64,000 bases of DNA from Sclerodactyla briareus (Eukaryota > Echinodermata > Holothuroidea > Dendrochirotida > Sclerodactylidae). Both the position numbers and the translations under genes were made by a program. Positions within the stretch are counted from its first letter, which is position 1; each line of letters starts with the position of its first letter. Below the pieces are notes generated by a model that was given only the letters and a program-made list of their open reading frames with translations, had not been told where the DNA came from and made no database searches. The stretch covers positions 620,001-684,000 of the forward strand of contig JAODTK010002110.1 in assembly GCA_026419785.1 (NCBI GenBank). The letters run 5' to 3'. Shown one piece after another: positions 17,385 through 63,400 of this stretch.

Positions 17385-17755
17385 CGAGTGGTTAGCACAG
17401 TTGGTAGAGCGTCCGCTTTCCACCCGGTAGGCCGGGGTTCGAATCCCGGTCGGGTCATACCAAAGACTTTAAAATGGGACCTGTTGTCCTTCTCGTTCGG
17501 CGATCAGCCTGAGGGGATAGGAACAGTACCGCAAAAATGTGGGGTAGGCAATTTGTGAATTAGTTGCCGTCGGCGTGTAAGTACCCCCGCCTTCACATTA
17601 AGTACGCAAACGAGGCATCGACCTTGTTCCGTGTACCTGGTGAAGGTTTCGCCGCTGACAATTCGTGTGATATATCCAGGTCCGCACCCTTGCCGGCCCT
17701 CGTATAGGTAGGGTCCTTTGTCCGGCAAGTTTTGACTTGGAAGACTATGTTCTAG
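17385..17755 (+). mobile_element. tRNA-derived SINE copy B
   Basis: The A box TAGCACAGTTGG (17393-17404) and B box GGTTCGAATCC (17435-17445) both match the pol III consensus. The tRNA fold is imperfect: there is a mismatch in the T stem, and extra bases lie before the D arm. The head is joined to a non-tRNA body beginning 'ACCAAAGACTTTAAAA', so this is a SINE and not a tRNA gene. The body from about 17560 aligns with the minus strand of 4630-4830 (SINE copy A). It lies inside the minus-strand Tx1-like LINE, in the opposite direction, and so looks like a later insertion. Confidence 0.75.
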
Positions 17756-35929: not shown

Positions 35930-38000
35930 CTCATATCTCTAGCACTATCAGGAGGAATTGCGATATATAAAGGATGCTAAAATGTCTCGAGAACTAGATA
36001 TGATCCTTGTCAGCATGCGTTTAGGCTATTTCAAGTTCAAAGTGACTTTCCTTTCTGTCTATCACAATCGACGGATCTTCATTTCAACAGTTTTGTAAGA
36101 AGAGTAGTGATACCCTCTCCATCCACTCCATTTATTCCGTTGGCGTAAGACTCATGGCTTCCCCCCAGATAAAGACCGTTCAAGTTCGATCCGTGACACC
36201 GGGTATCCACCAACCACCTTTATACACAGCGGCACAGCGGCACAGCTGTTATCATATAAGTCATTGTCGGCGTCTTTGGTTCGAGAAGGGATGGTTCGCG
36301 TGACCCCCCAAGGAATTCCCTGTGTGAACAAGAAAGCGTTTCGAAGATAAACAAGTACAGAAACATCTTCGCTTAATAATGAGGTGGCAAGGTGCCAGGG
36401 GATTAGTGCACAACCCCACCCCATTACATTCGGGAGAATGATTCTCGGAGAGACTAGTGTTGCTAACCACCAACGGTAATCTCTTCATATTTGCTGTGCC
36501 GCTATAATTCCCAAGAATCAATTGGTACTTGTGTCGAAGAAAACAGTTTCGAAGATAACGAGATTCGTACAAAGACATCTTCGCCTGGTAATGAGGAGGC
36601 GAGGTGCGAGAGAGTGTAGACTCCTCCCCCCCCCCCAACCTCCCTCGCATTCGGGAGAATCATTCTCGGAGAGAATAAATGATGCTACCCATCAACGCTA
36701 ATCACTTCATACCTGCTGTGCCGCTATAATTCCCAAGAATCAATTGGTACTTGTGTCGAAGAAAACAGTTTCGAAGATAACGAGACTCGTACAAAGACAT
36801 CTTCGCCTGTAATGAGGAGGCGAGGTGCGAGAGAGTGTAGACTCTGCCCCCCCCCCTCTTCCCCTCTCGCTCCTGGAGAATGATTCTCGGAGAGACTAAT
36901 GATGCTACCCATCAACGCTAATCACTTCATACCTGCTGTGCCGCTATAGCTCCCTAGAAACAGTTGGTACTTGGTCTCCTCGTCTCCAATCCGGAAGTGG
37001 TCATTATGAAAGCATACCGACTCTCCCCGTCGAAGTCTTCCAGGATCAAACTCGTAGATCATAGGACCCCTGCGCTGTCAGGTGGAAAAGTCTCTCGTTT
37101 CCAAGCCAGTATTCTGAGTTGACGTTCCCAAAACCGGATTTATAGTCTGCCCAGTCGCGGAAAAACCCGACGGAGCCATCAACTCGCCTTTGAAGGATCT
37201 ATTGACCAATTGAAGAAGGCAAAGAAGAATATTTATTTCAAAATGAACTGTTCGCTGATGCGGGAGACAATAACTCAGCAGCCCATGCCTTTCCATATAT
37301 TTGATTGGTGTTTAACATGAGAAAGTCATAACTAAAAATAGCCAAAAAAGCAATGCGGCAAATCAATGCGAAGCATCAGTACGAGGGTTACATTGCCTAT
37401 TCCGTGTTAGTTTCTTTATTTCGACAGATGATTGCCTCTATATCTCTAAACCGAATACAAAATATTCAAGACATTTCTAGTATGCGTTCACGTGAATTTG
37501 ACATCTATGGAGTTATGCCGCATAACGCATCCGTAACAAAGCCGATGATTGTTAGGAGGAAGGAAATGCATGAAAATAAATATGACCGTCTATCTCCATG
37601 AGGGAATGAGACCTCAATTGAAAAGGAATTTGTCTGTCCGACCGCATCAGCAAACGATCAGTCGGAAGTAAAGTAACTGCAAGGCCCAACTCGACTCCGA
37701 ACTCGATAGTCTTCACTTAAGAACTGAGAATCAGCAGCACCTTGCACTTTGTTACACAAAACGACGTAACATAGAACGCACCAACAAACAAAATAAAGAA
37801 ACAATCCCAGCTGAATGGGGAAATGTTTTGAATTTCTCACTTACGATAAGTGATGACTATGCTTCCTGGTTCCAACCCCCTTGCTCTTCAATCACCGCCC
37901 GTCTCCTGCCCTCTCTATCTCTCTTCTTGCTGGGCACTGTCAGACTCATGTGCTATTTTTAGCGAGATTCCTAGGAATATTATTCATTTTCTCTCCTTGT
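35930..38000 (+). repeat. Large palindrome, left arm, outer part
   Basis: The reverse complement of this part aligns with 62450-63920. Clear anchors: 36145-36180 against 63689-63724 (nearly identical over 36 bp), 37096-37145 against 63184-63233, and the 'CCGTCTCCTGCCCTCTCTAT' stretch near 37900 against 62530-62555. Alignment begins close to 35930, where the right arm enters a TA microsatellite. No frame free of stops is shared by both arms over any long distance, and no known domain is present. Confidence 0.8.
36320..36955 (+). repeat. Tandem repeat of about 221 bp inside the left arm
   Basis: 'GCTGTGCCGCTATA' recurs at 36493, 36715 and 36935 (steps of 222 and 220 bp), with 'TGGTACTTGTGTCGAAGAAA', 'AGACATCTTCGCCT' and 'GGAGAATCATTCTCGGAGAG' in each unit. 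The matching place in the right arm (63350-63560) has a single unit, so the expansion is specific to the left arm. Each unit carries a C-rich run of 9 to 11 bases. Confidence 0.8.
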
Positions 38001-38127
38001 AGTACGGCAGATAGTGAAATATTTGTGTTTGTGGGTTTGGTTAAACAAGCATAAATTTTGTATGCAGGTAGACTAAACCCTTGTGATCATTTTTAGATGT
38101 AGGGCCATCTCAGATTTGACCTGTGTG

Positions 38128-38385
38128 ACAAAAAAATGGCGGCCATTTTCAAAATTTTGCGGCCATTCTCGAAAAACATAAAAATCAATATATCTGCCCA
38201 AGTAGGTAAAATACAAGAAAGTTTTCCTTTCCATATTATATTGGGCATGACTAATCCAATGGAATGTCATATTGAACCATTTTGGGCTTCACAGGGTACC
38301 CAAATCCAAGATGGCTGCCATATGCCATTTAGAAAAACATAAAATCCACAATCCCGCCCCCAAATAAATTAAAATGACAAAAAGG
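38128..38385 (+). repeat. Inverted subrepeat near the left end of the 7.8 kb block
   Basis: About one and a half copies of a roughly 185 bp unit with 'GGCATGACTAATCCAATGGA', 'TTGAACCATTTTGGG', 'AGGGTACCCAAATCCAAG' and 'ATGGCTGCCATATGCCATTT'. The reverse complement occurs twice near the other end of the block (45455-45745). Confidence 0.8.
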
Positions 38386-38391
38386 TGGACT

Positions 38392-38697
38392 CTTCACGAC
38401 TGCTGCGGTTGATAACATTGACCACAACCCCAGCTCTACCAGTTCCCACGACTATTCCATGGAACTGGAATATCGCTGTTCCAGCACCCGGACAATGACT
38501 TTAGTGGAACTTCCCGAGCTGTTGCCTACACTCATCGTGATGCTACTGGTTGTCAAAAAGGATGCTAGCATCTCTCTCACAGGATACGACGAGTACAACT
38601 TGTTGCTCTTCCAAGGCAAGACCACCGGTGCCGAAGCAGAAGGTCCAAACGAGCAGACTGTCAGCTCATACCTAAGCCTTGCGGACGGATATCAGTA
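38392..38697 (+). pseudogene. Uncharacterised multicopy protein family, N-terminal part
   Basis: Read in shifting frames this gives AVDNIDHNPSSTSSHD (38404-38451), then GTGISLFQHPDNDFSG and, in another frame, GPNEQTVSSYLSLADGYQ. I recognise this as part of a large protein family seen in many copies in invertebrate genomes and left unnamed in databases. The recognition is from memory. The following parts of the same family lie downstream on the same strand at 39515-40235 and 42360-44345. At least two frame breaks occur here. The part ends abruptly at 38697, where AT-rich inserted sequence begins. Confidence 0.6.
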
Positions 38698-39514
38698 GGT
38701 TGCACATCCTTGATTTACATAGGTATCTACCACTTTATCCACAAATTAGCCAAGTTGTGCAGTGTGGAGGGGACACCGAAAATGGAGAACTTCTTTGAAA
38801 TAAGTAAAAAGTGTGCTATTGTTAAGGAATGATACTGTTTATGCCTATTTTTTAAGTTATAACAAATTTAATGTTTGTTATTACACTTAAAATCAATTTT
38901 CTTGATATTCGGTGATTAGGGCTAACGTGTAAATGGGGCAACCAATTATTAATTAAACTTCTTTTTACCAAACTCAACGGAATAACTTTTGTGCCAGTAA
39001 ATATTTCGGAATGTGTTCATGTTTGGCATCATAACAGTAATAGTACTGGTATGCGTTTTTCATTTCGCTTTAACCTTTGTCTACTTTAGTTGCACGTGTA
39101 AAGGGGACACAAAAAGATGGGATCCTTAGTCTAAAATCGTTTCGACATGTGAATTATTTGAAAGAAAACAGAAAGTGAATCATGATTCTTATGATCTACA
39201 ACAACTACCTTTACAGTTTTAGTCGCAACTTCTCTACGTTTGGGATGAACTTAATAATTCATATTGATTTTTGTTTGTGGTGTCCCCTGTACACGGTACA
39301 CTATCGAGAAGTATTAGAAAACCAAAAACAAAAAAGTTGACAAATAAATTTCAGTAACTTAATAGTGGGTTGCGTATCTTGATAAATATAAACAAAGGGA
39401 ACTTAACAAACGAATGTACTTCAAAATTGGCCTGTGCCCTACTAATAAGAATACTCACCCACTATCATCACATTTACAAGATTAAATATAAATATAAGGA
39501 ATATGAAGAGAGAT
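38698..39514. mobile_element. AT-rich insert with 'GTGTAAAGGGGACAC' motifs
   Basis: This stretch separates two consecutive parts of the decayed gene, so it is an intron or an insertion. It holds three direct versions of a 15-mer (GTGTGGAGGGGACAC at 38762, GTGTAAATGGGGCA at 38927, GTGTAAAGGGGACAC at 39096) and one inverted (GTGTCCCCTGTACAC at 39280). This fits a small non-autonomous element with internal repeats. No coding potential was seen. Confidence 0.4.
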
Positions 39515-40235
39515 GATTCCTGGGCTGCATACCCGCAAGCCAGCAAGAAGCACGACTACAGAAAGACATGAATGGGCTCTCTCGTCTTGACTACCCTGTT
39601 CCACGAGAGGCACATTTCAGTAGCCATGATTCGCCACTCGAGAACATCGTGAAGATGGCAGTGATTGTCCTGAACCATGGTCAGATCTACAGTCCTCAAA
39701 TGCGAACCAGCCACTCTACACTCTGGCCAAGCCCATCCAATTGGAGCTGGCCTACAAGTTACGGAGAGGGGTCGATTCATAGGCTGTTGGTGGCCTACAC
39801 ATCGAAATGGCGTCCAACAAGGTCCGGGAGGATCTTCGGGTGGTTTAGCGGTGGACAGGAGCACTTGTGCGGCCGGCGTTGCTACCAGTTAGAACAGCAG
39901 ATTGTTTCTAAAGCATCCACACAGTGCACGCACAATACCGGCTCACAACCTAACGCCAGTAGCTGTTCTTCTTCGCAGAATGCCTACAGAGAGTAACTCC
40001 AGACCTGGGAAGATTGCAACGTGAAGTGGTCATTTGAGACTGGTATGATGCACGGTCCCAAGGCATGTCACAATTCCAATTCTGGTACCTCATCATGCAG
40101 CTAGAGCTGCTGTGATGGTCTCATGGAGAGAGTACGTGAGGCGGAATTCTGCTATACAACAGGACGCCCTGTCCAAGATCGTTCCTTGGTTTTTCAGCCC
40201 TCGACCGTCCTGGGCGGCGATCCGTATCCTCAAGT
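39515..40235 (+). pseudogene. Uncharacterised multicopy protein family, central part
   Basis: Frame-shifted pieces in family order: SWAAYPQASKKHDY (near 39519), ISVAMIRHS (near 39612), GGLHIEMAS (near 39790), RWTGALVRP (near 39850), SQFQFWYLIMQLELL (near 40068) and ALSKIVPWFF (near 40167). The GGLHIEM and QFQFW phrases are hallmarks of the family as I remember it. The product's role is unknown to me. At least five frame breaks and several stops show it is dead. It is interrupted after 40235 by unrelated sequence with a G-rich run and an AAACGTTTT-rich stretch. Confidence 0.65.
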
Positions 40236-42359
40236 GGGGGGGAGGGGGGAGGACATGTTGTGTGAGACTATCTAAGCGGAGCGGTCACCATGGGTGGCGC
40301 GGATCGTGAATATAAAAATGTTTTGGGAATCCACAACCCTCTAGTGGCCGGACAGCACTTCTCGTGGTTATCAAGAGGCATATACCCAGATCTAAAATAG
40401 AGATCATAAGTCAGAAATATCCATATCAACCTTCAAAGTATTTTCTTCTCAAGTTTTTTTTTTCGGGCAATGCGCTACCTTCTAATTTTCGAGGGCTCCT
40501 TATATTATCCCATGGAGACACAGCCTCACTAGCTATTCATGCCATGGCATATAAGTGGGGTCGTAAGTCTTTTTAGTATCATCAATAATCAAATGCTTTT
40601 TTTATTTATTAAGATGCTGCGTTATGTTGTTTTTAAAAACAGGTTTTACGGAAGCGTGTGTCTCTCTCCTCTTACAGAAGTTTTAGCCCGTCTTACTCAG
40701 TTATCAGCAACACAAAAACAACCTGAGCAAGGGAACCCCAGCAAACACGAACGTTCTCAAACATTTTTTCTTATATGTTTTTAAACGGTTTATGTTGAGT
40801 ACACGAATGTTACGGAAAAGTTTCCATACCATCCCAAAAAAAGTTTTCGAAAAAAAATATTCTTAAACATTTCCATTCTCCTTCCAACTTGGAGTTAACA
40901 AGCAACTTTGGAAATCAAAACAATAATAAATATACTTCGCAACACTACCTTAAATCCGTTTGGCGCCAAATCGTTTGCCACCACAACCCTTCTAGAACAC
41001 TTTCAAAAATTTTTGAAATGTTTTCAAAACGTTCTTCGAAACGTTTTTGTGACCGTTTTGGAACATCCTCATAACCTTCGTGTTATTTCACAAAAACGTT
41101 TTCGAAACAATCAGCGAAACATTTTTAAAAATTTTTGTAACCCGTTTTGGTGTTTGTAGGCCACGCGTGACCCCCCTCCCCCCCCCCCCTCCCCCCCCCC
41201 CCCCTGCCGCCCGACCCCCACAACCGACTCCACAACCACAATGTAGATGTAAATTTTATCAAGGCTTTCCATCCGCTACCTCAATCTCAGACTAATTAGT
41301 TTCCGATTTTGTCTGATGAACAATATCTCTGTTAGCAGGTTAGTGGATTGTTACGAGAAGCACCCAACCACTTCCTTCCTTCGTTCGTCGCAACTTTCAT
41401 GACCTTCTGGGTCAATGAGTTGGGGGTCGATTCTCATCAGGAATTTGGGATGTACTGAGCATCACCATCAGGTGGTTCCAGCGTTGCCTGTCCAGTTGTA
41501 TTCCTTAACCAGGTTTTGATACGCTGAGTGCACTGAAAGACTTTCAGCTGAACAGGAGCTCGCCGGAGGAAAGCCCGAGCCGCAGGAGCTGCTCACTACC
41601 GCAGGGAACATCCTTCTGTCTGTAACCTGTGGTTTCAGTGCAACCCAGATTTTCCTGATGTCTTCAATCAAAACCGTCATAGACGGTATGTTCCTCATTT
41701 ATTCAGAGGAAAAAACGGAGTTCCGTTTCCAAGTCTTCCGATAGCTCGGTACTTCTGGATCACTGACTTGTCAACCTCTCCGTCACAGCATTGGTGACGG
41801 CCCTGCCACCGAAGTGATCGTTGGGTTTTGTCCATAAGTGTTTCTTCAGTTTAACCAATGTCTGTGGAAATTCTGTGCAATCGACCAGTAACGTTAGACG
41901 GTCCTCAGGCTGCGTCTGTAGATCTATCATCTACGTCGCGACTCGCTCGATTACAGTGAAATAGCATGCAGCATGCAGTGCTGTCCGACCTGTACGAGCG
42001 CCGCTAAATATGTCTCATAGTTTGACTGTTCGGGACTACACGTGACTCGGTGGCGCGCCTGCCAGTTTATAACCATTGGCGATTTATCTCACCACTATTG
42101 GTTGATGGCGGACAGTATAGAACCCCCCCCTGGTACCGTACGTCATCCTATATCAACGGCCTATTCTCACAATTAACCCCACACTTTCCTGATGTCTTTG
42201 CTCAAATCTTGGGGGGGATATGGTATAACATATCCCCCTCACACTGTTGGGTGGGTGGGATACATCCCCCCACATCCCCCCCCCCCCCCCAGTATCGCCG
42301 CCCCTGGACCATACACACTACGCGAGACGGGGTCGATCCACCTTACGAGACATTGTGTC
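40236..42359. other. Sequence interrupting the decayed gene
   Basis: About 2.1 kb without recognisable family motifs between the PWFF part and the next part. It includes a stretch rich in AAACGTTTT-like words on both strands (40780-41150), a C-rich tract (41171-41214), GC-richer unassigned DNA (41340-42050) and a short imperfect palindrome around 'GGGGGATATGGTATAACAT' followed by a 15-base C run (42276-42290). Some of it may be further decayed gene that I cannot read. Confidence 0.35.
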
Positions 42360-44345
42360 ACTGAAAAGCTCAAATCAATGATGTCCATGCTGAGGTTTCA
42401 TGAAGGTGAACTTGTGTCAAAGTCAGACGTTCATTCGCTTCTGTTGCTATTGACACATGCCATGAGTCAGAACAATGCTTCTGTGAATATAGACGTGGGG
42501 CTTTTGGCCTGACGAGAACCCCGTCGCTCTTTGTCGTAGATGGTATCTGGTCCCGAGATGGCCGTTTAATTCAGAACTCGGTGATCACCGAGAAAGACAA
42601 TACACAGTTTGAACGTCCCCACGAACAAAAGAGACTTTGGACCATTGGCATTTGTACAAGAATGGTGCGATCACAGAGTCGAGTAATGGAAGAGATGGGA
42701 AACCCGTTCACTGAAAGCAGCAGGATCCTCATTGTCCTGGACAGCGAGATGTTATGGACACAGCAGTGGAGACCGGCACGGCAGATGGAGAAACTTTGGG
42801 CTCGAGAAGTATGGAGACATATTTTGAAGAGATGCTTGTGAAACCAGACGTACCTATCCACATGATCCCATCAAGCGGAACAATCTCCATCTATTCAGCC
42901 GCCCACCATCACATAGAGTTAGTCAAGGGAACAGCTACACAGATATCCTCCCGGGAGAACGACTGTTCGCTCTTCTCCCGCCTGTACAATTGCCTCCCAG
43001 TGATGTTGATTTGGACGAGTGTCTTCCAGCACGAAAACCGGGCATGTCCACCATCTCTGTCTAGATGGGGGGCCTAAGAACTGGAACCAAGTCTAAGCTT
43101 GATGCACTGGCTGGAAAAACTTGTAACCGTGAAAGATGATCTCTCCACCCCAGATAGAAGTCACCATCTTCGAGGGGTGCTGCCATCTCACATGCCTGCG
43201 ACCAGGACTGAAAGACCATTCCAAGGTTATGCCACTGATGTCTTCGTGCCGTATGTCACATCCCAGCTGCAGCTTGTCAACAGACTAGACATTGTGTGGA
43301 ATCTTGTACCTGGCATACAGCTTAAAGGCGGACCACTCGCGCAAAAGAGGGAAAGGAAGCTAGGCGACGAGTCGAGCCAACAAGTGCAGTTCCTGGGAAT
43401 TGCCAAGAGTTTTTCCCGCGCATGACGGCAACGAGACGGAGCTGTTCTCCTCCTTGGCCTCTAACATAGCAAACATTGACACCAACAAACATATCATCAC
43501 CACACAAGGCACTGGAAGGTATTTGGCTCTAACGTCAGAACGTGTCAGTTAGCGGCCATGCACACATGAAGGGCTGACACCGTATCTTCCTGCACCTACA
43601 GGATGCCGTACAAGGGATACAGCAAAGTACGATGCGCACAGTTGATACAGACGTGATAGTCATGGCCATATAACCAGCCACTCGTCTTAACATCTCTGCA
43701 CTGTGATTGCCCTTTGGAGTTGGGAAGAAAAAAAAAGCTTCGGTTCCTCGCTGCTCATGAGATTGCCAAAGTTCTTGGTCCTGACCGATGTGTGGCTTGC
43801 CGATGCTCGCCCTCCTTCACATGTTGTGAACACCGTGTCCTGTTTTGGCGGCCGGTGGGCAGAAGACTGCATGGGCACCTGGACCACCTGTGGAGACGTC
43901 ACACCCGCATTATCTGCCTTGGGTGCCAAGCCAACCCAAGTGCCATTGGACGATTGGATGACAACACCTGGAGCGGATTCGTGGTGCTGTTATACGATCG
44001 ACCACACAGATGGAGGTTGTGAATCAGGCGAGAAAACAGCTGTTCGCAAGAAAGGCAGAGCTATTGATGGTTGCTCTACACAGACTGCACTCAATCCAAC
44101 CCCGAAAGAGCTTGCCTACCAGCTGGTCACTGTTGGAACTAAATGATGACCCCTGTTCCACGGTTCCGTCACCAAGTGAATAGGGCTGAACAAGAAACCT
44201 GATGTGGATGGAGGATACCTGGACGCACCTACCAGAAGCATCAGACGTATCAGGTTACTCTTGATGGTAGCTGTCAAACCGTTGCAGAGGACGCTGCAAT
44301 GCCAGAAGGCAGCACTCCGGTGTACAGCTCTTTGTCCAGTGCGGT
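42360..44345 (+). pseudogene. Uncharacterised multicopy protein family, C-terminal part with CXC-like end
   Basis: In order: FHEGELVSKSDVHSLLL and MSQNNASVN (42396-42500), GLTRTP, MGNPFTESS (near 42694), DPIKRNNLHLFS (near 42863), YATDVFVPYVTSQLQ (near 43231), TVDTDVIVMA (near 43638), KLRFLAAHEIAKVLGPDR (near 43735), HVVNTVSCFGGR (near 43819), and at the end CQKAALRCTALC (near 44300). The final Cys pattern resembles half of a CXC (tesmin/TSO1-like) motif. The middle, with TVDTDV followed about 180 bases later by the NTVSCFGGR phrase, has the conserved acidic look of a nuclease core, but that is only inference. Stops and frame changes occur roughly every 60-100 codons, so the copy is inactive. 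This and the two upstream parts together correspond to a protein of perhaps 1200 residues or more. Confidence 0.7.
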
Positions 44346-44485
44346 GGACAGTGCTCCGAGTGAGCCATCCCATTGGATTTAGTTCCTTCAAATGTTATGT
44401 GAAATGGACCCTTATTGTTATTCAACTTATTTGGGGGGCCAGATATATGGAATTTTTTATGTTTTTTCAAAGGGGGACGCGCCTA

Positions 44486-44910
44486 TGTTCATAAGGCCTT
44501 TTATTCCATAGGTCTTTTGTTCATGAGGCCCGTTATTCCAATAACGTGCAAATTTCGAAAAAGGGTCCTTATTCATAATGACCGAAAAGGTCCTATTCAT
44601 CATAAAAACAGGTTCTTTGTTCATTAAGTCCGATATTCATTATGAACCAAAAAGGCCCCGTTTTTCATAATCATCAAAAGGGTCTGTTATTCATACAGAG
44701 CCAAAGGTCCGATATTCATAATGTAAAAAAGTTCCGTATTCCAGCAATGGCGAAAAGGGTCCGTACTCATAGAAGGCGAAAGGGACCGTTATCATAATAG
44801 CAAAAGGTCCGTTTATTCACAATCGCAGAAAAGGCCCGTTATTCATAATATGAAACGGGTCCGTTAATTCATAATGCAAAAGAGGTCCGTTATTCATAAT
44901 CAGTTTTTTC
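44486..44910 (+). repeat. Foldback array, left half
   Basis: A degenerate array of short units (roughly 24-37 bp) built around 'AAAAGGTCCGTTATTCATAAT'. About 13 units can be counted, each with variants of GGTCCG or GGCCCG followed by TTATTCATAAT. Its reverse complement forms the array at 45060-45440, with about 150 bp of unrelated sequence between. It begins some 140 bp after the last family motif of the decayed gene. Confidence 0.85.
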
Positions 44911-45059
44911 CGTTTCTTTCTTCTTTCCAATGATAAAAACTTGCCAAGCCGATGATTCTACCTTGCGAGGTCCGGCAAGGATGCAAACCCCCCGAAAACT
45001 GCAAAACCTTTTTGTCAGCTGCGATGTTTTCCCTGGCAGAATCCACGACCGGTGTTTTT

Positions 45060-45440
45060 GGTTTTCCTATTATGACTACGGACCCTTTTTCCTAGTATGC
45101 ATATCGGACCCTTTTCCCTATTATGATAACGAACCTTTTTTTCCTATTATGAATATCGACCTTTTTTACTATTATAATATCGGACCTTTTTTCCTATTAT
45201 AATAACGGACCTTTTTCCCTATTATGATAACGACCTTTTTGTTCACTATTATGAATAACGGAACGAGTTTACTAATATGAATATCGAACCTTCTATTGTG
45301 AATTATGAATATCGGCCCTCTGAATACGAACCTTTTCGGCCATATATGAATAACGGGCCTCATGAACGAAGACCTTATGATAAAAGGCCTTTATTGACAA
45401 ACGGACTTTATGAATAAAACCCTTATGAACATCGTGCTGT
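45060..45440 (-). repeat. Foldback array, right half
   Basis: About 12 units of 'ATTATGAATATCGGACCTTTT' type, the reverse complement of the array at 44486-44910. A transcript or single strand could fold on itself over about 400 nt. The subrepeat pair that matches the far end of the 7.8 kb block follows immediately (45455). Confidence 0.85.
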
Positions 45441-45454
45441 CACCTTTCAAATGC

Positions 45455-45745
45455 GGATGCAAGCCATCTTGGATGGGGTACCCTGGGCAAAAAAAAAAAA
45501 AACCCAAAATGGTTCATATGCCACTTCCATTGGATTAGTCATGCAAACATTAATGGGAAAAGAACCCTTTGTGTCAGTTTACTTATTGGGGCGGAAGAAT
45601 ATGTGGATTTTGATGATTCAAAATGGCAGATAGCAGCCATCTTAGATTTTGGTACCCTGGGAATCCCAAAATTGTTCGCAATAATGCATTCCATTGAATC
45701 AGTCCATGCAATATTATGTGAAAGTACACCTTTTTTTCGCGGCAT
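45455..45745 (-). repeat. Inverted subrepeats near the right end of the 7.8 kb block
   Basis: Two tandem copies, read on the minus strand, of the unit at 38128-38385. Each holds 'CCAGGGTACC', 'AAGATGGCTGC' or a variant, and 'CATGACTAATCCAATGGA' or a variant (near 45540 and 45695). An A run of 14 at 45491-45504 interrupts the outer copy. Confidence 0.8.
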
Positions 45746-45772
45746 TTTAACTTACCTTTGAACTTACTATTG

Positions 45773-48700
45773 AATAGAGAGAACACTCAAACTCACGTCC
45801 CAGCGCCTCACGTCTGTGTCCATATCACAGTGGACGTAAAAGAATCCAGGTAGGTTCAGTGGCTGTATCCTGTAGACGCCGCTTTGAATTTGACCAGTTT
45901 CGAAGATCTCAGAGCAATCGACCGGAAAGCTACCATCCGCCAGTGCCTGACAATGAGGTATAAACAGCAGAGAAGTTAAAATGTAGCCTTAACACAAACG
46001 GGTTGAAATGACATATCATGAACGCTATTTCTCAGTTTTCTGTTTAAGGGTTGATAGGGAAACGGAAGGAGGTTGTTAGCGTGAATAGAAAAAAATGTAA
46101 GAGAAAATAGTCGGGTCCCGGAGATCACTGATCGTCTTAGAAGAATTGCAATGACGTTCCCGGCAGCAGTTTTGGAACATGGGTAACCCCTGCTCGATAT
46201 CATCTGAGCACTTGCTGAGAGCAGAAGCGATTTATCGCCGAGCTCATCCACATCAATTCGCCAGGGTTCCTTGATTGAGCCTCACCTGGCCTTTTCCGCA
46301 ACCAAGAATAAACCAAGTCAAATCAAGCAAAATCAAATCTAAATTATATTTCTGACGAATCCTACTATTCCGGACAGTTGGCAATTGGAAGTACTAATGG
46401 GTTAAAACGGTAAACAGTTATAAGACATAGGATTCCTTTGTAATTGTTCGGAAATGTGAAACGTTTCTCCGTCAAAGTATACGGAATAGGATTGATTGGA
46501 GCAGAAATTTTTCAGTTATAGCCACATTTCTACGAATAATCTAATTTCCAAGAGATGTTGTGATGGAATTGCTAAGACGGCGTCATATTTCAAGTTGTTT
46601 CATACATATTCTCCAGGGTAGCAATTAGGTTCACCATGACTCCAATGAGACTGCAAACTCGCGTGGATTGCCTCACGCTTTTTCTATTTATATTTGTGGA
46701 AGTGCTGGGAGTCGTGCGGCAGGTTTCCGGCCTCTGTGCTGTCACAGGTGAAGAAGAACATGTCTAAACCTCACGCCCACTCTTGATTATGTGAGTTTTA
46801 TTTCACTTGAAACGAATTGTGTCTGCGGTCACAAGTGGTGGGGTAGAAATCCAGGGCTGCTCATGAATGTTAACAACATTCTTTAACCTCATTTCACGGA
46901 GGCATATTGTGCAACAACAGTTGTGTCGTATTTTTCCACACCTGTCGCTAAACTGTATGCTTGTATTAGATCTCTCATTGCTCATAGGGCTAGGATCCTT
47001 CATGACGTAATTTAGGTTGAATTCACACGAGTCTGAATATGAAAAGTGTCTGAAAAGACTGTAATTAGCTTGCAGTAATACCGATAGGTTACATGAGTAC
47101 TACCCCAACAACCATTTGCTCCACTGCGGTGATGCCGCATCAACGTAAGGAATTTATCAATTATCTTTGTCTTAATGCAATTTTACATCCCTATACATGC
47201 GTGAGTTACTGGATATTCATAACAACTGTCCCTAATAATACAGTTTATTAATAACTGAAAATCACCCGTTTTCGCTGAACTATGATTTTGACGTTCATAT
47301 TGCACATCGCATCCGTATCTATATAATCCTAGTAGCCTTACTGACATCCAGCTTACATGCCCCTTCGCCTCGAAACGAACGTTGGCTCAGGAAAATAGTT
47401 TTGAGCGAGAGGGGGGATGACATGGGGGTCTAAGGGTAGGGGGTTCCTTTATAGCACACCTGAACAGCCACTCCGTATTGGGAACACTTTTGCATTTCAC
47501 CCATGTCTCACTATTTCGGGAAGATGACGACATTTTCGAGCGGTGGCTGCTGATGCAAGTCGGTGCCCGAAAACCCATCTTGTTTTGGAAACCATTTTGC
47601 GTTTTCAGCTTGCGTTGGTATTTTGCGGAAAATCCGGCATTTCCAGGGGTCTTTTGATGCGTAATTTGTTGGAATATTACACGCCTAAACAGTAAACACC
47701 CACTTCCAGAATAATCTTGCATTTCCACCTATACTTACTACTGATACATGGTTCCTTGTCCCTCCGAGGCTCTGGATGCCATGGCTCCCTACTTCGTTTT
47801 ACTCCACCTAGTCTAGTATTCTTAGAAAATTGTTGTCCCAGGCGCTGTTTTACGGGGGATGGGCCCCCATCATCTCAGCCCCAAAATGCTGTCTATGAAA
47901 GGCTAGAATAGATTAATGCTCCCCAATAGGCAATGGATTAATGCTTTTCCCCGTGATTTGGGGTCCTACTTTCTCCGTGCGAACTTTCATAGAGGTGGAA
48001 ATACATGAAAAAAAAACATGAGGGGCATTTCTATTCTCAGCTAGACTAGGTCTTCCACCAATTCAACTAGAGTTCATAAACAGATTGTAGCAGTTTTGAA
48101 CAGTTTGACAGTGTTTACTTTTGAATTTTCTAGAATACCTCTGACTCGCGTAATATATTTAGCGATTCGAGTGTGTTCAATTTGATAACCACATCAGATG
48201 TAAACCTCCAGTAAATCCAAACTTATATAGGCTTTATCAACACCGAGAAATTATTTTCGAAAATGATTTCATAAATTTATCCTCACAAATGTCGTCTTCT
48301 CTCCAAGCCCTCGGACAGTTCGCTACAGCATTCTGGCGGTTAGGAATAGAGTAGAGAACCAATTTTATTATGCTGTTGACACAAGTTCAGGGCCCGATTC
48401 GTAGGTCATATTCGGAATTTAATTTTTCCGTTTTGTTGCTCTATGACAATTGCTGGTTAATTCAAAGAGACAATGGGCGTCTACTACAACTGACGGAAAA
48501 GCGACGGCGACGTTCGCATGACATCACGATGAAGAATCGTCCCAGTGCATTTTGATATCCTTACGGTATATCGTCACAATAATTCGTCAATGTGGAATTA
48601 GCTCCAATATACTGTGAGACGACTTTTCGTCTATCGCCGTGTAAACAGGACCCACATTATTCGCTGGGTGTTGCGAAACGATGATAAAGAATGAGGTAAA

Positions 48701-51380: not shown

Positions 51381-52032
51381 TAAAAATAAAAATTATTTTT
51401 GACCCTATAACATTACAAAGACAGAGGAAAGTAAAATGAAAAAAGAAAAAAAAAGAATAAGAAAATACTCTCAGTCCATATATTTTGTGAGCATAAAGCT
51501 TTGTTGATGATCTGAATAGTCAAATACTCCGAAAAATAGATGATGGATATGTAAATTATCCTTCCCAGAAGTTAGGAAATCGCATTTAGGCGCATCTGGA
51601 TTCAATTCGTTAGCGGGGGTCCCCCAAACTCCATGCCGTGGCTTCGCGATTTTTCAGAATCCTGGATCAGCGCCAGGCAATAGCGAAGTGTTGTATTACA
51701 TAATGATGGTGTCAGTTCAAACACTCCAATCATGTTACCTTTTAAACGGCAGTATGCTAAATTTGGCAGTTTCAATTCATACAGACGATAGCTGATGTTT
51801 TGGAAACTAGGTTACATTATTGTTGCTCTCCTTTGAACGTTTCCCGAAATCTCGCTCTTTGGAGCTTAGCCCCGAACGATGGTGATTGTTCCACATCTCG
51901 CAACTCTCACAGAGAACCCAAATGCCCTCCATATTACGAAAGAAATACTATAACACCAAACACACATCTCCATCACTCTATTATGACGTCGGTGACCTGA
52001 TTAGGCATTAGGGAGGAATGGTGAATAAGGCT
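51031..52032. other. Unassigned sequence in the palindrome loop
   Basis: Contains an (ATT)n/(AGT)n microsatellite and short frames. No gene is supported. Confidence 0.4.
51323..51380 (+). repeat. (ATT)n then (AGT)n microsatellite
   Basis: A few ATT units change into about 12 AGT units. Confidence 0.95.
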
Positions 52033-52417
52033 GGGATTTCATAGCTGCGTATGCGTATGTGAAATCGCCGATTGACGTGAACTGAGCGGGGGCTAGTGTT
52101 GAACATGTTCTATTTAGTTTTCAAAGATGGTTATTGGTTCCACAGAAGCAAAAAAATTCATAAGTGAAAGCAAACCAACGCTGAATAGGCGAAATAAGCA
52201 ATGTTTCAATGCGTATGCGGATGCGTATCACCGCGAATGAATTATATGGAATATCTTCCTTAAAAAGCAAGCAACGACAATATGCATGGGCTGCTGCCTT
52301 TGTATGGTCTTTTCGCATACACTTATAGTGTTTTCTCTTCTGAAATAAACGTTTCTTTCCATAAATATATGATTCTGACATCCCGCCCGGATACGCATAC
52401 GCATCTATGGAATCCTA
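52033..52417 (+). mobile_element. MITE-like unit 1
   Basis: Begins with 'GGATTTCATAGCTGCGTATG' and ends with 'CGCATACGCATCTATGGAAT' plus CCTA, so the two ends are inverted repeats of about 22-24 bp. The interior has no coding potential; the two short minus-strand frames in units 1 and 2 (MSESYIYGKKRLFQKRKHY...) arise from the repeated interior. Units 2 and 3 follow head to tail. Confidence 0.75.
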
Positions 52418-52428
52418 AGCCTTAGGCC

Positions 52429-52808
52429 TAGGATTTCATAGATGCGTGAGTATGTGGAAAATCGTCAATTCACGTGAACTGAGAGGGGGCTAGTGTTTGA
52501 ATGTGTTTCGATTAGTTTGCAAAGATAGATATTGGTACAGACGCTAACCATCTAAATTAGGGCAAACCAATGCCGAATATGCGAGAAAAGCACATGTACC
52601 AATTCGAGCGTATGCGTATCACCGCGAATGAATTATATGGAATATCTTCCTTAAAAAGGCAAGCAACGACAATATGCATGGGCTGCTGCCTTTTCATGGT
52701 TTTTCGTATACACTTATAGTGTTTTCTCTTCTGAAATAAACGTTTCTTTCCATAAATATATGATTCTGACATCCCGCCCGGATACGCATACGCATCTATG
52801 GAATCCTA
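52429..52808 (+). mobile_element. MITE-like unit 2
   Basis: Same structure as unit 1, with ends TAGGATTTCATAGATGCG and CGCATCTATGGAATCCTA. It is separated from unit 1 by 11 bases containing CCTTAGG, and the same CCTTAGG lies between units 2 and 3. That word could be a target-site remnant or part of the unit. Confidence 0.75.
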
Positions 52809-52816
52809 CCTTAGGC

Positions 52817-53045
52817 TAGGATTTCATAGATGCGTATGCGTGTCCGGTACGCATGTGAAAAATCGCCAATTTACGTGAACTGATTTATGTCTGTATATGT
52901 CCTATTCAGTTTGCAAAAATAGATATTGGTCCCACAGAGGCAAACAATCATAGATGAAGACAAACTAACACCGCCGAATAAGCGAAATAAGGACAGGTAC
53001 CAATGCGTATACGGAGGCGTATCACCGCGAATGGAATCTATGGAA
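52817..53045 (+). mobile_element. MITE-like unit 3, internally deleted
   Basis: Begins with a perfect left end (TAGGATTTCATAGATGCGTA) and ends near 'GGAATCTATGGAA' after losing about 150 bp of the interior and most of the right end. Confidence 0.65.
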
Positions 53046-53399: not shown

Positions 53400-53810
53400 T
53401 CATTGGGAAGAAGTATCTAACACCCCATAAAGACCCCCATTTTTAGTTGGGTCATCTGGGGCACTCCGTGACCGTGGAGGGCGGAGGTTGGTTTTTTCGA
53501 TAGTTTTGACCTCCTCAAAGGTCAAATAAAAAATAGGCGAGGGTGCCTCTCGCCAAAGTGTGGGCGGAAGTCGTGAGTGGTCAAAATCCAAAATGGCCGC
53601 CGTCGGCCATCTTGAAAATTGGTATTCAAATAGTTTGAGGTACAAACAATCGTAGCTTAAAACATCATTCCTGGGGTTTGGGGCCGAGGAATCATTTTTA
53701 ATGTCAGTTTAATGATTCGAAATAAATTGATATCCCAATCCAGATTCCCAGCTTTCGATTGGTCGAATTTTGAGCGCAAATTTCGATTCCGTGTTCAGCG
53801 TGGAAAGCGA
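53400..53810 (-). repeat. Nested inverted repeat in the loop, left copy
   Basis: The reverse complement matches 56470-56990. Shared blocks include 'GGGTCATCTGGGGCA', 'TTTGACCTCCTC', 'GGTGCCTCTC' with 'AAAGTGTGGGCG', 'AAAATGGCCGCCGTCGGCCA' (itself nearly self-complementary), 'TTCCTGGGGTTTGGGG' and 'GATTGGTCGA'. A further diverged copy of the central core follows at 53920-54150. Confidence 0.75.
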
Positions 53811-56469: not shown

Positions 56470-56990
56470 CCTATCAGGTATACGAAGCGACGAATTCGAA
56501 TATCGACCAATCGGACGCGTTTCATGTAAGGAGACATGGAATCATGAAACTGATATGGAAAATGGAATCCTTGACCCCCAAAACCCCAGGAACGATGCTT
56601 TAATTAGGAAGATGTACCTCAAACTTTCTGAAAACCAATTTTCAAGATGGCCGACGGCGGCCATTTTGGATTTGTGTGATGGTGGCGCTCGGATTCATGA
56701 AACTGATATGAAAAATGGAATCCTCGACCCCTAAAACCCCAGAATAGTTTTTAAGTACGATACCTATACTATTCGAAAACCAATTTTCAAGATGGCCGAC
56801 GGCGGCCATTTTGGATTTTGGCCACTCACGACTTCGCCCACACTTTGGAGAGGCACCCTCGCTTATTTTCTTATTTGACCTTCGAGGAGGTCAAAACAAT
56901 CGAAAAACCAACTCGCTCTCCACGGGGGGGTCACGGGATTTTATTTGCCCCAGATGACCCAACTATTTTGGTCACTAACCAAGATAAACG
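56470..56990 (+). repeat. Nested inverted repeat in the loop, right copy
   Basis: Mirror of 53400-53810. Here the core is doubled in tandem, with 'ACCAATTTTCAAGATGGCCG' at about 56634 and 56780, roughly 146 bp apart. The open frames on both copies (TFEEVKTIEK) come from the repeat. Confidence 0.75.
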
Positions 56991-60400: not shown

Positions 60401-63400
60401 AATATAGGGGTATACTAGAAATTTGACACTCAAAAGTAAACACTATCAAACTGCTAATGAGAATGTCGAACTGCTACAATCTGATTAAAAACTCTAGTTG
60501 AATTGGTGGAAGACCTAGTCTAGCTGAGAATAGTCACATACAGAAGTCTGTCATCGACCGTGCCTCTCAGGTTTCAGGACGTATCCATCTCCATGAAAGT
60601 TCCAACGAAAAAGTAGGACCCCAAATCACGGGGGAAAAACATTAATCCATTGCCAATTTCTAAGGACTAGGTGGGGTAACACGAGTAGGAGCCGTTCCTC
60701 CAGAGCCTCGAAGGGGCAAGGAACCATGTAATCAGTAGTAAGTAGGTGAGAAGCAAGAATTATTCCGAAAGGGGTGTTTTAGGCGGTAAACTGCACCAAA
60801 TACGCATCAACAGACAGGCAGGAAATGCCGGAATTTTCTAAGATACCAACACAGTGAAAACGCCAAAATAATTTACAAACAAGATGAGTTCGGCACCGAC
60901 TATGCATCAACATCCACCGCCCGAAAATGTCGACATCTTCCCGAAATACTAAGACATGGTGAAATGCACAAAGTGTTTCTATAGGAGTGGCTGCCTAATG
61001 GGTGCTATTTGCAGTGAATTGCTTACAGCTATCTGAAAATGCCCATATTTCCCACGGATACTAGACCAAGGTCGAACGAAAAACACATTTGGAAAAGAAC
61101 AGATTTTGAGGTGTGCTGATTAGCAGCAAATGTTTCTAAGGCGACCTCTAAATGCGAAAGGAGCCCCCTACCTTTAGACCCCATGTAAGCCCCCCCCCTC
61201 TTCTCACTCAAAATATTTTCCTAAGCCAACGCCAATTGTAAGCTGGATGTCGTAAGGCTTACTAGGATTATAGAGATACGGGTTTGCAATGTGCAAATGG
61301 ACGTAAAAATCACAGTTCAGCGGAAACACGGATAATTTTCAGTGAAATAAACTGTATTTAGGAACAGGTGTTACGATTCGTAGTAAACTCACACATATTA
61401 TAGGGGACGTAAAATTGCATTATGGGAACATAATGTGAATTCCTTACGTTGAGCGGCATCACCGCACAGTGGGAGACATGGTTATTTGGGTAGTACCTGT
61501 AAATAGTAAGCAATGGACAGGTCTTTTTGGACGCTTTTCATATGTATGCTCGTGTGAATTCACCAATCTAGATTACGTCATGCGTAGCCTAGCCTTATTT
61601 TAGAAGATGGTAAATGAGAGCCGATATGTGTGGGGAAATAATGCCTTCGTGAAAGGGGAGATTAAGAAATGTGTACTTCTATGAGCAGCCCTGTATTTTT
61701 CTACCCTACCACTGTGACCGCAGACACCGATTCTTTTCAAGTGAAATAACTCACCAAAACTCAAGCAGTGGGCCGTGCATGTTTTTTAAACCTGTTCTCC
61801 CTCACCTGCAGAAACCTGTCTCGCACGCTCCAGCACTTCAGAAAAAAATTGGGTGAAATGGCACCCGACTATACACCATCTCATTCGGTCCTCTGGGACC
61901 GAGTTTTAGACTATCGTCATGACAAGTGTACGTCTACACGACAAGCTCAAATTTGAAGAACTTACAACAGCCATACAAGTGTGACAATTTTCCAAACTGA
62001 GGTTTCTATTTACCTGTGAACCAGGTACTATTGCATCCGAGATATGAGGAGTCATTCGATGGTATCTTAATAGCCAATTCTTTCAAACTGACGAATCGTC
62101 TTCCCGGTTTCACGTTTCCGTGCAAACGCTTTCAGGCGGGGTTGGTTAACGCTTACAACCCCTTTTCGTTTCCCTACCATCCCCTAAACGGAAAAATAAG
62201 ATATGTTCAATGAATGTGTCGTGAACCGGTTGAGGTATAGGAAATTTTAAACACTCTCCTGACTGTATACCTTATTCTTCAGGCAATGCGGATGTAGCTT
62301 TCCGTCGATTGCTCTGAGATCTTCGAAACTGGTCAAATTCAAAGCGGAGTATACAGGATACAGCCACTGATCTACCGTGGATTCTTTTACGTCTTAATGT
62401 GATATGGACAAAGACGAGCGGCTGGACGGTGAGTGTTCTCTCTATTTAAGATGAGAAAAGGGATAATAACCTAAGAATATTCGCTAAAAAAAATAGCACA
62501 GGAGTCCGGCAGGGCCCTGGCAAGAAGAGAATAGAGAGGGCAGGAGACAGGGCGGTCATAAAGAACAAGAGGGGGTGGAACCAGGAAGCATAGTCATTAC
62601 TTATCATAAGGGGGAAATTAAAAAAAACCCCATTCAGCTGGGATTTTCTTGTTTTGTTTGGTTGGGTCGTGTCTATGTTACGTTCGTCTTCGTAGTAAAT
62701 AGTGGCAACGGTGCTGCTGATCTCCGTTCTTGAAGATATTGACGCTCGGGGTCGAGTTGGTGGCCTTGCAGTGACTCTGATCGATCGTCTGTGATTGCGG
62801 TCGGGACAGCAAAATCCTTTTCATGTTACGGATACGTATGTGGTACCTGACTACACTGATTGTCAAATCACGTGAACGCAGACAGACCATGTCTGAAAAT
62901 TTTGTATTCGGTTTAGAGATAAGATATTGAGTTCCATAGAGGCAAGTAGTCGTCGAAATAAAAAGAAACTGACACGGAATAGACAATGTAACACTCGTAC
63001 CGAAGCAGGCAATAATGCCGCATTGCTGCTAATCGCGTTCTCCTACAACAATAAAGTTTATGAAACAGGCATGGGGTGCTGAGTTCTCATTGTCGCCCCG
63101 CATCAGCGAACAGTCCTAAATTGGTCTATAGATCCTCCAAAGGCGAGTTGACGGCTCCGTTGGATTTTTCGCGAAGGGGCAAACTATAAATCCGGTTTTG
63201 GGAACGTCAACTAAGAATACTGGCTTGGAAACGAGAGACTGTTCCACCTGCAGCGAAGGGGGACTACGAGTTATCTGGAGGACTTCGACGGGAGAGTCGG
63301 TATGCTTCATATGACCAAGTCGGATTGGAGACGAGGAGACCAAAGTACCAACTGTTCTAGGGAGCTATAGCGGCACAGCAGGTATTGAGAGATTAGCCAT

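Follow-up and report, generated by a model that had tools for sequence, protein, structure and literature searches.

A decayed inverted-repeat DNA transposon of probable Academ (AcademX) affinity, with the remains of its likely transposase gene, in Sclerodactyla briareus

We conclude that a 7,770-bp block in the genome of the holothuroid Sclerodactyla briareus is a dead copy of a terminal inverted repeat (TIR) DNA transposon, that the large gene inside it is most likely the transposon's own transposase gene, and that the nuclease-encoding Academ elements (AcademX) are its likely relatives, a membership that we infer by comparison with published descriptions. The block lies in the 64,000-nucleotide stretch analyzed here (the window; positions 620001-684000 of contig C1955, JAODTK010002110.1), and the genome searched for further copies comprises 319,486,128 bases in 3,171 contigs. 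A first-pass annotation had proposed the block as an undescribed mobile unit. Its mobility is borne out by ends that recur elsewhere, by 3-bp target duplications, and by an empty site, whereas the word "undescribed" is now less supported, as the duplication length, a size of about 5 kb, and nuclease-like motifs point to Academ (AcademX).

An old inverted repeat of about 28 kb holds the element (38000-45769) in its left arm and lacks it in the right. In self-comparison of the window, the arms pair at approximately 36.0 to 51.0 kb and 57.5 to 63.9 kb, with aligned pieces 71 to 87% alike. The segments that bound the block are 37619-37993, which pairs with 62823-62453, and 45770-46085, which pairs with 62449-62146, so that the block is missing between 62453 and 62449 on the right arm (empty site, 62449-62453, minus strand). 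The trinucleotide TTG stands directly outside both edges (left copy, 37997-37999; right copy, 45770-45772). The reading of the empty site compares ..TCTCATCTTAAATAGAG with ..TCTCTCCTTG and TTGAATAGAG; the right arm has TTA at the target, and its length is that expected for duplication of three bases. The absence from the right arm that had been noticed earlier therefore stands, with the edges corrected to 38000 and 45769, and the limits of the element rest on this empty site together with a terminus held in common with other copies. The inverted repeat as a whole spans 35963-63908, with a spacer of about 6.5 kb, and both arms are old and decayed. Tandem duplications with periods of 222 bp and 391 bp occur inside or between the arms, at 36427-36973 and 52028-53045. 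Elsewhere in the window, an Rfam tRNA match at 17386-17457 scores just above the gathering threshold (31.1 versus 29); ARAGORN finds no tRNA there, and the match is therefore perhaps a tRNA-derived repeat.

The same edges hold at other loci. With its first 1.5 kb as the query, the block had 93 matches in the genome (best E value, 6.9e-264), and at least 100 bp of end sequence was found on 15 other contigs. Both orientations are present on 11 of these, and a single orientation on the remaining four (C184, C1391, C2102, and C3087), of which C184 is short and terminates close to the end sequence. Copies from the 15 contigs and from C3108 were taken with their flanks and compared with the window copy. 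Nine two-ended copies range from 2,499 to 6,812 bp in length, and their terminal arms are 81 to 93% alike across 135 to 148 ungapped positions. The gene described below travels with the unit, as had been predicted: other copies hold it between their ends with its parts in the same order. The copy on C1391 shows an internal duplication, the same gene part standing twice in tandem (L076 1414-2254 and 2496-3415).

The flanks of these copies fit an element that duplicates a 3-bp target site on insertion. With ends placed by extrapolation, identical flanking triplets are found in 5 of 11 two-ended copies (L070, TTC; L072, AGG; L074, TCT; the C3074 copy, CTG; and the window copy, TTG), a count reached by 9 of 100,000 shuffled pairings (permutation P of about 1e-4). 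Exact duplications of 2 bp or 4 bp occur in none of the 11, although at 4 bp the flanks, too, share more letters than expected (P = 0.018, 11 copies). The exact triplet is absent, as extrapolated, in 6 of the 11; L069, L077, and L081, which would match after a shift of one decayed end by 1 or 2 bases, were excluded from the count. A separate test on nine copies yielded P = 0.0038 when letters were counted and P = 0.0071 when exact triplets were counted; letter counts were raised at 4 and 5 bp too. Longer duplications of the AcademH kind were not detected: at k = 9 and k = 10, the average match did not exceed chance (P = 0.63 and 0.57). Across the join of the L071 flanks runs a single open frame of 30 codons, and by eye this copy appears to have inserted in a retroelement; the sole Pfam match stayed below threshold and was to an unrelated family.

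The ends have a composite structure. In other copies, a full end consists of a unique terminus of about 170 bp followed by one or more subrepeats of about 162 bp, and a full copy is laid out as an end, the gene in either orientation, and an inverted end. The window copy has on its left the unique terminus (38000-38173, plus strand, beginning TAGTACGGCAGATAG.. and aligned with 24 ends from other copies) and subterminal subrepeats (38174-38385, plus strand), the unit length being taken from an expanded array in L078. These subrepeats pair in inverted orientation with 45462-45736 at 71 to 78% identity in self-comparison. The right end (45445-45769, minus strand) has subrepeats only; it lacks the unique terminus of about 170 bp and stops at TAGTAAG, read inward. 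Thus, the inverted subrepeats reported near both ends by the first-pass annotation are real, but their unit is about 162 bp instead of 185 bp, and a unique terminus has to be added to them. Lining up 25 ends, the left end of the window included, gives the terminus form TAGTAC(T/G)GCAGATAGGTG. TAGTA stands at the extrapolated start of 14 of the 25, and the remainder deviate by substitutions or small indels. The right end of the window copy matches the terminus consensus weakly, ranking third among the eight TAGTA starts in the element. Because the TTG duplication is seen at this edge, the element may nevertheless have moved using an internal end. On C3074, one end has expanded into a tandem array of 22.8 units of 162 bp (L078 3829-7579), as if a transposon end were seeding a satellite. 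Motifs of the CCAAAATGGCCGCC type, which resemble those of the subrepeats, also occur at 53588-53603, 56654-56669, and 56799-56814; the window holds 15 matches with 3 or fewer mismatches, against 1.3 expected.

Two segments of the window copy are later insertions and not part of the element, since the other copies are continuous at both places. Insert A (40206-42302, 2.1 kb) has no clean target duplication in its flanks, and part of it recurs outside an element, in L070. Insert B (44472-45444) carries inverted 25-bp tandem arrays that form a foldback, with arms within 44493-44901 and 45063-45391 in self-comparison. TTTCAAA on both sides of it is a candidate 7-bp duplication, and parts of it recur elsewhere, with a similar array in L083 (6275-6486). 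The foldback array that had been counted among the contents of the unit is therefore real but belongs to a separate insert of about 1 kb, which has no match in any of the 10 other copies whose alignment reaches this place.

The gene is represented in the window by ordered fragments on the plus strand from 38402 to 44360, the remains of a large, probable transposase gene interrupted by insert A as well as by stops and frameshifts. The earlier description of ordered remains of one large protein family is thereby upheld, and the protein is also recovered from 12 further copies by frameshift-aware alignment. The 13 aligned copies have from 0 to 4 in-frame stops each and 10 to 60 inferred frameshifts, the latter counts probably inflated by the alignment method; as every one is broken, none looks functional. 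Searching the genome with the protein returned 30 matches, distributed over the window's contig and 11 others; all of these 11 carry TIR sequence, 10 of them on both sides. An N-terminal mosaic query gave 81 genome matches, including more divergent gene remains on 17 further contigs (E value of 1e-3 or less). One of these, C166, has 6 kb without long inverted ends and with only short inverted pairs of the CAAGATGGC type. Differences between copies at codon positions 1, 2, and 3 are 0.233, 0.190, and 0.262. For dN/dS, 13 copies were compared, and an alignment was used in a region only if its score was at least 150; 76 of the 78 pairs fall below 1 and the median is 0.67, although guiding the alignment by protein lowers dN. 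These values suggest that the protein was under selection while the family spread.

No intact relative of the element came to light in further searches, and no named family could be matched to the protein. Pfam had no match in the three plus-strand frames through the block, and searches of Pfam, NCBIfam, and PDB returned no relevant relative of the protein. Viral contigs, searched with the protein query, with patterns, and with an alignment of the C-terminal region (A1, below), yielded no relative. A pattern scan picked out 58 loci on genome contigs and 2 viral ones, among which the best tblastn match had an E value of 0.35, and a further pattern search of viral contigs picked out three loci with a best E value of 0.59. 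Phages gave no DNA match and one protein match with an E value of 1, plasmids no match at an E value of 0.01, and a literature search on the large protein family found no paper. The earlier remark that the unit holds no known transposase is nevertheless less supported, since the features of the element point to Academ, a known superfamily of animal transposons that has received little study.

The C-terminal half of the protein carries an ordered series of acidic motifs resembling those found in nucleases of the Rad2/XPG/FEN group, and after them, in several copies, a Cys-rich tail. In the window, the gene part with these motifs lies at approximately 43560-43900 and the remains of the tail at 44280-44360, both on the plus strand. 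The tail presumably resembles CXC domains. Alignment A1 comprises 10 of the 17 rows of this region (region C), L071, L074, L075, L078, L085, L116, and L117 being excluded as partial or unreliable, and its majority sequence reads, in order, HEEADTR, VDTDV, TGCDTVS, and GGRGKKTAW. With decay, the motifs are intact in 6 of 9 rows for EAD, 5 of 10 for DxD, and 7 of 9 for GCD, and the window copy has CCE in place of GCD. The majority spacing is 24 from the D of EAD to DxD and 57 from there to the D of GCD; G follows at +9, T at +12. In human XPG, the metal-binding carboxylates include E789, E791, D810, D812, and D861, and G870 and T873 belong to the DNA-binding H2TH motif, according to passages of PMC7515719. 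The order and similar spacing of E/D, DxD, and GCD and the following G..T are thus shared with Rad2/XPG/FEN proteins; in contrast, the element protein has Thr where the usual Tyr follows GCD, and it has no significant profile match to them. The ordered EAD-DxD-GCD pattern appeared in 3 of 20,000 shuffles, a pattern defined after the sequence had been seen. When hhalign was run against five FEN1 chains, the score of the real alignment was equaled or exceeded by 88 of 100 shuffles, and a simple profile alignment selected the GCD..KKA stretch with a z score of only 1.6. XPG_I has one match elsewhere in the genome and none in any copy, and a pattern intended for viral FEN1 sequences returned two unrelated proteins. 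A DDE triad or core in the protein is suggested by eye.

It is the 3-bp duplication, the size, and the nuclease-like motifs, judged against published descriptions, that make AcademX the fitting group. Common to both are a 3-bp target duplication, TIRs, a length of several kilobases, a large gene with nuclease-like motifs, and an animal host; the nuclease of AcademX is of the XPG type, whereas the putative one here is indicated by motifs. In the part of PMC10045372 that treats them, AcademX elements make duplications of 3 or 4 bp and AcademH elements of 9 or 10 bp, lengths that are related to the encoded nuclease and helicase, respectively. Our element, at about 5 kb (nine copies, 2.5 to 6.8 kb), is near the mean Academ length of 5,565 bp given for bivalve genomes in a passage of PMC10294476, where Academ among molluscs is found mainly in bivalves, with a few in two annelids. 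Academ is listed as a DNA transposon (in a section of PMC4455052) and with the superfamilies that have a DDD/E transposase (in a section of PMC9587614); the sources for Academ and AcademX are Kapitonov and Jurka (2010) and Kojima (2020), as cited in passages of PMC4455052 and PMC10045372. AcademH does not suit the element, which has no duplication of 9 or 10 bp above chance. Pfam matched no helicase in the three plus-strand frames of the decayed window block.

That the protein was tied to no named family by any tool leaves some room for a TIR transposon outside Academ, either undescribed or from among the known groups that also duplicate 3 bp, EnSpm/CACTA and Harbinger being examples. We consider this unlikely: EnSpm/CACTA termini start with CACTA or CCC, and the ends here start with TAGTAC, with TAGTA in 14 of the 25 that were lined up, while size and nuclease-like motifs suit AcademX. 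Kolobok, whose target duplication is TTAA, is not indicated either, with exact 4-bp duplications in none of 11 copies. A separate superfamily, in which an RNase-H-like transposase core, a flap nuclease of the Rad2/XPG type, and a zinc tail rich in Cys would be joined in one large protein that acts on inverted ends of tandem subrepeats able to expand into satellite arrays, seems to us rather doubtful.

The first-pass annotation had left open whether the gene was cargo or engine. As cargo, of host or foreign origin, it would ride on an element mobilized in trans by another enzyme, and since every aligned copy is broken, enzyme activity cannot be seen. Long ends with tandem subrepeats also recall Foldback (FB) elements, whose inverted ends are partly built of such repeats, but the element here has in addition a unique terminus of about 170 bp, duplicates 3 bp of its target, and encloses a large conserved gene. 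The divergent gene remains on the 17 further contigs might also be taken to favor cargo. Against it, almost all copies retrieved hold the gene or part of it, no further coding remains were recognized in the block, the three plus-strand frames have no Pfam match, and codon-position differences and dN/dS values below 1 suggest selection during spread. We therefore regard cargo as improbable and the engine side as favored; a gene that lies between inverted ends with 3-bp duplications is most likely the transposon's own, its enzyme (transposase). A history in which the right arm lost a block that was never mobile is conceivable for arms so old, decayed, and diverged (71 to 87% alike), but it is contradicted by the same edges on 15 other contigs, with 3-bp duplications, and by an empty site of the expected length, and we give it hardly any weight.

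If the gene is the element's transposase, the protein would bind the element ends, perhaps at the subrepeats of about 162 bp, excise the element, and insert it with a 3-bp stagger, and the XPG/FEN-like domain in its C-terminal half may process DNA ends or flaps. For the window itself, the asymmetry of the palindrome and the block within it become a piece of transposon history, and the puzzle that they posed is removed. The large protein is, we presume, abundant in invertebrates under the label "uncharacterised," and were the separate superfamily true, a large number of such proteins would be explained by it. An unannotated large protein family is now anchored to inverted ends with 3-bp duplications, and the connection that the literature proposes for AcademX versus AcademH, here between a short duplication and a domain like that of a flap nuclease, can be tested on it.
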